64,000 nucleotides of DNA from Norana najaformis. Lineage: Eukaryota > Annelida > Clitellata > Crassiclitellata > Hormogastridae. The notes below the pieces were generated by a model. It saw nothing but the letters and a program-made list of their open reading frames with translations. It searched no databases and had not been told where the DNA came from. The stretch is taken from NCBI GenBank assembly GCA_964023275.1, contig OZ029927.1:19203262-19267261 (forward strand). Reading direction: 5' to 3'. Positions within the stretch are counted from its first letter, which is position 1. Every line of letters begins with the position of its first letter. This document shows positions 12,231 through 52,911 of this stretch, in pieces. Made by a program: the position numbers and the translations under genes.

Positions 12231-15200
12231 GTATCCGTTTTCAGTATGGATCGACAGTTATAGCACGTCAATTTGCAAGTTTATATGTGAAGGATTAACT
12301 GGGTGAGTTTGGCCATCATTATCTTGTCTTTCCTGAAAATAGAAAATATATGATATGTATGATTAGTGTTTAATTAGTATACAATCGTATTCTTAAACTT
12401 GTATATCATCAGTGGTAGTATCAACTAACTAAACAACTAACTTCATCATAAACATTAACTGCATCAACAACTGCATCATAAAACTGATCAACATCATCAA
12501 CAACTTTATAAACGAACTTCGTCGCTATGAAAACAACTGTCATCATGAATAACTTGAACATTAACATCACCATCAGCAACATCAATCATCATCGTCGTAA
12601 CTTGGCCATCATCATTATCACCATAATTATTAATATAATTGAAGCTTTTTCTGTTGGATTTGCTGTTAAGTTAATGTAATGTAGTCTGGTATTCTTTGAC
12701 TTACAAACTTTAGTATAATAAAATGTAAATTTAATCCATTGTTATTCTCTTTTCCTTAGGATATATTGTTTAAAAGATTCTTTATATAACTGGCATGTTC
12801 TTCATTAGTGAAGATTTTAAATAAGTAACTAGGAATTTGTTTCAATTCTTGATAGCTTATTTGCTATGTAAATGCTGAGTTATGAAGCATTTTGAGAAGT
12901 TAAAAGCCTATTATTTAGGGCAAGAGAAAACATTTTGTGTGCAATTTCTTTTAGTGAAGACGTTTTTTGAAGAAAGTTTCTTTGGGAAATGAAGAGGGGA
13001 AGAGTGCAAAGGTGGCCCATGTGGTCTTGTCTCCTCTGTAAGTGAATATTTTCTTCACTCTTGTTTTGTTCATGTTTTTTAAAACTTTTGAGAGTTTCAG
13101 AATAGGTTCTGTTTAAATCGCCAGATTCTTATAGGTTTTTCCTGCATGTATTTCTTCCAATCAAATTTTTCAAGGAGTTGTTTCCTTCATCAGCAAGTTA
13201 TTTTCAGTTTTCATGCTAAAATTATGCATTTATGTAGACGCTATTTGGTAAGGATTATTTCATGATTCTGCAAAACAATATTTAATGACTTTGCTAAAAA
13301 TTGTACTTCTGTGTTTTTGCTAAATAAAATTTTTTGTTACAAATTATAATTTTGGTTTATTTGGTAAGATTGTCAGTTTGTGTAAAATTGTAAATTGATA
13401 CAACTCCATTTTATATGACATTAATAGATGCCAAATAACTAATCATAATCGTAAGTGCACAGTTATATAGTGCTTCTCCAAGAAAACTCCTCAGAGTTAA
13501 TCCGGACCTGACAACTTAAGACTGCTGGCAAAACAGAGACAGTGGAAGGAAACTAATGTCACAGGTTGAATTGCATGTAACTATAGCTATAGCAGTTTCA
13601 AGTGCTACTAACCAGTAAATGATCTGCAAGGGCAAGCAGTTAACTTACAACTGACCAAACTATAGCTAGTCAACTGAACCAACAAATACCAAATAACTGA
13701 CCCGAAAATGATGGGTATTTACTGCAGTAGTTGCAGTTAATTTTCTAGAGCAGTTATTATTGCGTGTTGTTTTGATTGTGTTCACAGGCGTCGTTGTTGG
13801 ACATCTTCTGTTGGCAGACACAGTCGAGTCTGCTCCTTGTATTTTGCAGATGGATGGCACGGTTCGTGTTTTTTTACCACCATTCTGAGATTTTGGAAAT
13901 TGCACTAAGTGTTGGTCTTCAGATCTTGACTAAAAACTCATCTCTGCCTAGACACATTTCCTCTGTGGGTCATTTTTATTTCTTCCTGGGTTTTTGCTCT
14001 TGGCTTTCAACTGGACTCGCCGTGGAAATGGCATGCACAACTTTTTGCATAGCAGTGACTGTTGATTGATGCAATGAGCATTATTGCAGTGGTGGTTTAG
14101 AAGTTCTCGGATTATTATTATTATTGCTATTGCATGTGCTTTGATCTTCTGTGAATGTGTTTGCTTGACCCACCGTGCTTGATATTCCCCAACAACTGAT
14201 TTCTTATAAATTCCTCTAAGAAGATAAAGTTTTGTCCATTGCGAGCAGTATCTTCCTAGCTATTCTACGATCCTACTGCCATGCAGTTTCTCCAAACTTC
14301 CTCTTAGAAATTGTGGCCATGTTCACTGAGATGATACTAGCGTCGGAACTACTGCACAAGCCTACAGCTGTACAGTTTCTCCCTACTTCTTGTCAAAGGC
14401 TGTAGTTGGCTCAGTTGGAAGAGTACCATCATCCAAACTATCCACAAGTCTCAAGTTTCTCCTAACTTCCTCTAAAGGCTGTAGTTTTGTGAACTGGGAC
14501 AGTAGCATAATTCAAACTAACCACAACTCCACAACTGTATTTAAATGTAAAAATGCTCTTTCATTTGTAGCTGAACACCACGGCATTGTCGATTTACAAA
14601 GCCAAGGGCCAGTTTATGGATGGCATCCTCTACACTGCGTTTTGTGCGGGATTACCCTCAACCGTCTGCACAAACTTTCAGTCTCTTTCAGCCGGAAGGT
14701 TAGATATCAGTCAGAGTTTTTTAAACTGGTAATGTCAGTAGTCTTTCTACCTCTTTGAAGTCATGTTTCAAGAGGTTAGGATTGTAAGGATAGTATTTAA
14801 TTAATGATTGACTTATAACTGGTATTCTTCTATCCCAAAACCATTTTGATTGAGGCTCGCAACTAGAGGTTTGCATGATGCACTTTTGTGAGGCTCTTTA
14901 AAAATGTTAAAGAAATACTTAGACACTATATACTGGTACATCCTTCCTTCCTTCTTCGAGTCCCTGGACTCGCTGCACTTTGGTGTCAGTCATATGTTTG
15001 ACCATTCAGTTGTTCTACCTATGTACTTACATACTCACATACAGATGAGCAGTTACTTTCCCTTACCTTACCTTTCTAAACAGCAGTTGTCTTATGATTA
15101 GGGTTGTATTCAATGATTGGTTGTTGTTTTGCAGTCGGTTCTGCGTGATGCAGGTGACCGGGATGTGTTTTTGTCCAGCTGCTACTACCATCCTGCGCTT

Positions 15201-52911: not shown

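Follow-up and report, generated by a model that had tools for sequence, protein, structure and literature searches.

Introduction

Mesothelin is widely used as a target in tumours, and the genes of stereocilin and otoancorin are linked to deafness; the normal role and the origin of the family to which these proteins belong are poorly understood. Human mesothelin (MSLN; PDB 7ued, 8cx3) consists of a pre-part, a furin site, a helical domain of about 300 residues and a GPI-type tail. According to the available part of PMC2628672, mesothelin binds the mucin MUC16, and stereocilin and otoancorin are GPI-anchored relatives of mesothelin which are predicted to adopt an ARM-type superhelical structure and have been suggested to mediate the attachment of inner-ear gels.

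The gene described here lies in a window of 64,000 nucleotides (the whole stretch of DNA that was analysed, C15:19203262-19267261), and its product appears, as far as can be read from the sequence, to follow the same order of pre-part, furin-type site, helical domain of about 300 residues and GPI-type tail. In contrast to human mesothelin, it would carry two such units in a single polypeptide with a mucin-like linker between them, would reach 2016 residues as compared to a human precursor of 69 kDa (available part of PMC2628672), and is not matched by the Pfam Mesothelin profile. It is set apart from stereocilin and otoancorin by the doubled unit and perhaps by the strict furin-type motif that precedes each domain. 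Full-text searches covering few subscription journals returned no paper on an invertebrate member or on a doubled precursor. With its cut-site layout and four disulfide cysteines retained, so distant a relative would supply an external reference for working out the history of the family, and the doubled form with its mucin-like linker would offer a system for testing gel or mucus attachment.

A long, intron-rich gene on the forward strand

Exons were joined by a dynamic-programming exon chainer that was run over the whole region, using generic splice-site matrices and a codon model refined on the window itself. Between positions 14000 and 53500 the chain score obtained with the untrained codon model was 263 on the forward strand and 70.6 on the reverse complement, and 20 dinucleotide-preserving shuffles of the same segment gave a mean of 17.4 (sd 6.7, maximum 33.9). 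As the forward chain stands far above both, a long and intron-rich gene is really present on the + strand. The 43 chained exons were curated by hand: ten were dropped (three upstream of 14571 and those at 26587, 26852, 27588, 32389, 33191, 33878 and 36478), four edges were moved (to 29497, 32165, 38882 and 46637), and one exon (29028-29173) was added. Several of the dropped exons resemble an interspersed repeat, and some of the ten may be real.

The resulting hand-curated model (14571-52911, + strand) comprises 34 exons, 6051 nt and 2016 amino acids with no internal stop, in agreement with the first-pass annotation, which had arrived at no less than about 2000 residues by joining exons by phase. 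Splice scores are weak for the acceptors at 20991 (1.8), 24810 (2.5), 25824 (3.0) and 38882 (0.4) and for the donor at 44053 (0.6). No convincing first coding exon or signal peptide was found upstream of 14571, where candidates at 11610-11668, 12111-12230 and 13788-13861 were judged unconvincing, and the 5' end of the model is exon A1. Searched singly against Pfam, ten open frames of the region hit no family over its cut-off.

Taken in order, the encoded protein is likely to be built as pre-domain A, RKKR, domain 1, a Ser/Thr/Pro-rich linker, pre-domain B, RRKR, domain 2 and a GPI-type tail. The corresponding features are as follows.

Pre-domain A and its cut motif
14571..14698, +, A1, first exon of the model, pre-domain A; phase 0 to 2
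15135..15291, +, A2; phase 2 to 0
17940..18140, +, A3; phase 0 to 0
19695..19961, +, A4; phase 0 to 0; single-exon fold all helix, low confidence
20991..21158, +, A5; phase 0 to 0; weak acceptor
21851..22033, +, A6; phase 0 to 0
22580..22656, +, A7; phase 0 to 2; phase partner B7
23310..23433, +, A8; phase 2 to 0; phase partner B8
24021..24187, +, A9; phase 0 to 2; phase partner B9; acceptor 24015 in one chainer run
24810..24900, +, A10; phase 2 to 0; phase partner B10
25824..26013, +, A11; phase 0 to 1; end reads ...GTSRKKRA; partner B11, z 3.8-4.2
25998..26009, +, RKKR furin-type motif before mesothelin-like domain 1

Domain 1, bridging exon and linker
27057..27223, +, m1a, domain 1; phase 1 to 0; partner m2a
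27839..28003, +, m1b; phase 0 to 0; partner m2b; contains RRTR
27971..27982, +, RRTR within m1b
29028..29173, +, m1c; phase 0 to 2; m2c used as guide; own support weak, z 1.0-1.2
29497..29636, +, m1d; phase 2 to 1; acceptor chosen by phase with m2d as guide; unguided edge 29501
30457..30554, +, m1e; phase 1 to 0; 98 nt, equal to m2e
31149..32165, +, bridging exon: end of domain 1, Ser/Thr/Pro-rich linker, start of pre-domain B; phase 0 to 0; 1017 bases
31251..32054, +, mucin-like linker, aa 858-1125, 268 residues

Pre-domain B, domain 2 and tail
32906..33039, +, B2; phase 0 to 2
38091..38307, +, B3; phase 2 to 0
38882..39103, +, B4; phase 0 to 0; weak acceptor; unguided edge 38954
40212..40382, +, B5; phase 0 to 0
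42111..42299, +, B6; phase 0 to 0
42917..43014, +, B7; phase 0 to 2
43927..44053, +, B8; phase 2 to 0; weak donor
44791..44990, +, B9; phase 0 to 2
45515..45596, +, B10; phase 2 to 0
46637..46799, +, B11; phase 0 to 1; RRKR near its end; unguided edge 46601
46781..46792, +, RRKR furin-type motif before mesothelin-like domain 2
47189..47361, +, m2a, domain 2; phase 1 to 0
48219..48377, +, m2b; phase 0 to 0
49231..49376, +, m2c; phase 0 to 2
50396..50538, +, m2d; phase 2 to 1; 12-residue piece aligned with human mesothelin LDTCDPRQLDVL
51414..51511, +, m2e; phase 1 to 0
52142..52313, +, m2f; phase 0 to 1
52841..52911, +, last exon: hydrophobic GPI-type tail and stop

Within domain 1, acceptor 27057 is the sole listed in-phase acceptor near the RKKR joint, the higher-scoring site at 27041 being out of phase with A11. 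For m1c the acceptor giving 146 nt was picked over a better-scoring one at 29034 (140 nt) to match m2c, and m1f was defined as the initial 172 bases of the bridging exon, trimmed by us to the length of m2f. The linker contains 40% serine, threonine and proline as compared to 21% in the remaining protein, and includes an 84-base unit repeated three times at 31497-31751.

Two homologous units

A mesothelin-like layout had been assigned by the first-pass annotation to the last domain only. This holds for that domain, but a second one, which had been missed, sits right after RKKR. Thus, there are two mesothelin-like domains (aa 584-857 and aa 1695-1993), each with a furin-type motif before it. BLASTP aligns them with an E of 2e-13 and 61/255 identical residues (24%), and their Smith-Waterman score of 152 was reached by none of 500 shuffles (35.1 +- 5.7, maximum 60). 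Compared exon by exon, m1a to m1f score against m2a to m2f with z of 5.9, 3.9, 1.0, 2.3, 4.4 and 5.5, and A11 against B11 with 3.8; of 20000 random pairings, 7 did as well as the homologous pairing of these seven exons, and the identity pairing itself is expected to occur about four times among them. Paired exons are also of similar length (domain 1/domain 2: 98/98, 167/173, 165/159, 140/143 and 146/146). From A6|A7 through m1e|m1f the phases read 0,2,0,2,0,1,0,0,2,1,0 in both halves, so that eleven successive boundaries agree, with m1c and the m1c|m1d edge set using domain 2 as guide and the remaining phase-compared edges coming from the chainer.

The pre-domains are about twice as long as the MPF of the human mesothelin precursor. 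Pre-domains A and B resemble each other in their phases only, A having one phase-0 exon more than B; in sequence they show no convincing likeness (120/500 shuffles as good locally, 6/500 globally), and pairing their exons yields a mean z of 0.30 at offset 0 and of 0.91 at offset +1.

Putative cleavage sites, glycosylation and membrane anchor

The strict pattern R-X-[KR]-R occurs twice in the protein, with a mean of 0.33 in shuffled versions; 43 of 1000 shuffles reach two, and the count by itself is thus only modestly unusual. The placement of the motifs is more telling. RKKR (25998-26009, exon 25824) and RRKR (46781-46792, exon 46637), both found where strong furin motifs had been annotated, lie at most three codons from the end of an exon with outgoing phase 1, directly before homologous exons, and the aligned ends of A11 and B11 read GTSRKKR and GTSTKRRKR. 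It might be argued that the same gene gives rise to one long GPI-anchored solenoid in which RKKR and RRKR stay uncut, a rather unlikely reading in our view, which draws on the modest excess of motifs over chance but has against it that both strict motifs fall on a pre-domain/domain junction and that a cysteine follows as the ninth residue after RKKR and as the seventh after RRKR, as it does at the seventh in human mesothelin. By analogy to mesothelin, it is reasonably probable that RKKR, RRKR or both are cut.

A weaker motif, RRTR, is indeed present in exon 27839 as had been annotated, but did not hold as a third chain boundary: as it lies within domain 1, opposite GSNGQW of the sister domain 2, it is probably not a cut site. 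At the C terminus, the 19 consecutive residues of highest hydrophobicity in the protein fall within exon 52841-52911, which places a hydrophobic, GPI-like tail where the first-pass annotation had seen it; an arginine is located one residue before the end, and attachment of a GPI anchor is putative. Including this tail, 322 residues follow RRKR. This is in keeping with the earlier remark that the last 310-320 residues have roughly the size and layout of mature mesothelin, and the cysteine spacing fits as well. The protein further contains 31 N-X-S/T sequons as compared to a shuffle mean of 16.05 (0/1000 shuffles reach 31), an excess as would be expected of a secreted glycoprotein.

Relationship to mesothelin and stereocilin

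The disulfides of human mesothelin are C302/C326 and C442/C468 (available part of PMC10035497); counted from the residue after the cut, its cysteines are at 7, 31, 147 and 173. Counted in the same way, domain 2 has cysteines at 7, 36, 66, 146, 162, 174 and 189, and domain 1 at 9, 34, 63, 87, 146 and 172, so that the four human disulfide cysteines have counterparts no more than five residues off in both domains. Random placement of the cysteines fitted equally well in 44 of 200000 trials for domain 2 and in 16 of 200000 for domain 1, the latter rising to 180/200000 when Cys146 is left out and Cys172 still included. Domain 2, being unguided, provides the clean test, as Cys146 and Cys172 of domain 1 rest on the guided exon m1c. 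This spacing, which needs no alignment, is the clearest link to mesothelin.

Profile comparisons, which had been suggested as a way to place the protein within the mesothelin/stereocilin families, gave a divided outcome: the Stereocilin cut-off was narrowly reached, but Pfam Mesothelin was not matched. On pre-domain B plus domain 2, Pfam Stereocilin (PF21058, curated cut-off 26.6 bits) reaches 26.8 bits (E 3.4e-6), a borderline pass, but it stays below the cut-off on domain 2 plus tail (22.8 bits, E 5.9e-5) and on both domains pasted together (22.3 bits); of the 397 positions in the profile, the best stretch spans 121-211. No Pfam family, Stereocilin included, is matched by domain 1 on its own. 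Pfam Mesothelin (PF06060), which gives 610 bits on human mesothelin itself, matches none of the joined parts, nor does it match in a genome search in which the controls were likewise silent, and a search of NCBIfam returned nothing relevant. Short stretches resembling the phage tail assembly families PF10109 and PF23746, and a likeness to UBM (PF14377), were below cut-off and were set aside.

For direct comparison, a sequence of mature human mesothelin was used that agrees with the PDB in 302 of 303 residues. Domain 1 aligns to it by BLASTP with an E of 3e-6 (single comparison) and with a local score of 68 (0/500 shuffles), a local match whose register differs from that of the overall alignment, as may happen with repeats; end to end, 14/500 shuffles were as good. 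For domain 2 the BLASTP E was 0.055, the local score 52 (1/500 shuffles) and the global comparison 0/500. Exon A4, the one exon folded alone, was predicted as all helix with a mean pLDDT of 61.9.

When a profile of both domains was compared to the PDB, the best match was HeliScrew4 (9zem, E 3.5e-11), and mesothelin came fourth (E 2.1). HeliScrew4, presumably a designed protein judging from its name, shares short LTPEQ-type helical repeats with the gene product but has 120 residues, and the likeness is one of repeat type that gives no evidence of descent. This ranking, together with the proneness of LTPEQI-type repeats to chance matches, would suit a secreted helical-repeat protein which came to resemble mesothelin by convergence rather than by descent. 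We regard such an origin as improbable, as the Stereocilin cut-off is reached on pre-domain B plus domain 2 and none of four control forms of domain 2 (two shuffled, one with 11-residue blocks shuffled, one reversed) matches Stereocilin, in both domains four cysteines follow the cut at the distances known from mesothelin, and furin-type motif, size and tail come in mesothelin's order. The comparisons thus support a distant membership of the gene product in the stereocilin/mesothelin superfamily, but not its assignment to mesothelin proper.

Both units probably reside in one gene

One open exon of 1017 bases (31149-32165) runs from the last part of domain 1 through the linker into pre-domain B, and both halves therefore belong to one gene, as had been proposed from the start; this bridging exon is the strongest argument that both units are made as one chain. 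That two adjoining genes, one per mesothelin-type unit, were fused by our model is very unlikely: tandem homologous units with parallel exon phases would be expected from tandem gene duplication, and the 5 kb gap at 33039-38091, where three chainer proposals were dropped, could house other exons, but the bridging exon runs stop-free across both halves, domain 1 has neither a GPI-type tail nor a stop of its own, and no further copy was seen in 100 kb on either side.

In these flanks tblastn returned no copies, and a profile search yielded four frames with E of 0.8 to 4.6 only; as tblastn started from domain 2 is blind to domain 1, diverged copies may still be present there. In searches of the organism's own genome (608 Mb, 17 contigs), domain 2 plus tail gave seven matches, all of them exons of this gene, and domain 1 gave six of its own exons plus two matches on C12 that are put down to chance (E 2.7 and 5.7). 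Pfam Stereocilin pointed to one locus on C9 (E 1.2) and one on C3 (E 2.85), both below cut-off, and nothing mesothelin-like was seen at either. The mollusc haemocyanin profile PF14830 had no match in this genome, in a search whose controls were silent too, and no telomere-like array was seen where four of the contigs begin.

Proposed processing and role

The observations are, on balance, best explained by a single doubled precursor of stereocilin/mesothelin type that is cut and anchored, an explanation that we consider fairly probable as a whole. A complete unit would have been tandemly duplicated, and the single gene formed in this way would encode a secreted precursor no shorter than 2016 residues. 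Furin would cut at RKKR and RRKR in the Golgi and give rise to three chains: free pre-domain A (about 580 residues), a soluble central hybrid of domain 1, mucin-like linker and pre-domain B (about 1110 residues), and GPI-anchored domain 2 (about 300 residues). Furin cleavage, chain release and GPI anchoring of domain 2 are modelled on the mesothelin pathway as set out in the available part of PMC2628672.

Anchored domain 2 would then hold a glycoprotein gel or mucus to the cell surface, possibly that of epithelial cells, and this material might include the released hybrid chain. Such a role is suggested by analogy to the binding of mesothelin to MUC16 and to the proposed attachment of inner-ear gels (available part of PMC2628672), and we put it forward tentatively. 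It might further be speculated, with considerable reserve, that mesothelin's layout of pre-domain, furin site and mature domain is ancient and became doubled inside a single gene along this lineage, and that the mesothelin-mucin hybrid, as the middle product, could bind its GPI-anchored sister domain, one precursor thereby supplying the two partners of an adhesion pair at the cell surface.

Surroundings and repeats

Positions 1-9000 of the window contain many simple and tandem repeats, with a strong strand skew at 1-4000 (GC skew 0.34). A recurrent interspersed element occupies several introns on the - strand (24245-24493, 28803-29093, 32312-32725 and 52204-52509), and a + strand copy lies at 27588-27662; this element misled the exon chainer. 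The open frame at 36490-36843 on the - strand has no Pfam match and is presumably the tail of a LINE reverse transcriptase. An intronic tandem array at 40431-41808 consists of a 106-base unit repeated 13 times with 99% matches, which suggests that it expanded recently, and a perfect (AT)73 run is located at 50579-50724 in the intron after exon 50396-50538. Downstream, a gene on the - strand has an exon at 58086-58373 in which a variant SH3 domain is matched below cut-off (best E 1.4e-4), and a Ser/Pro-rich open frame on the same strand at 56887-57471 is without Pfam match; the - strand frames at 56887-58373 may be SORBS/vinexin-like.
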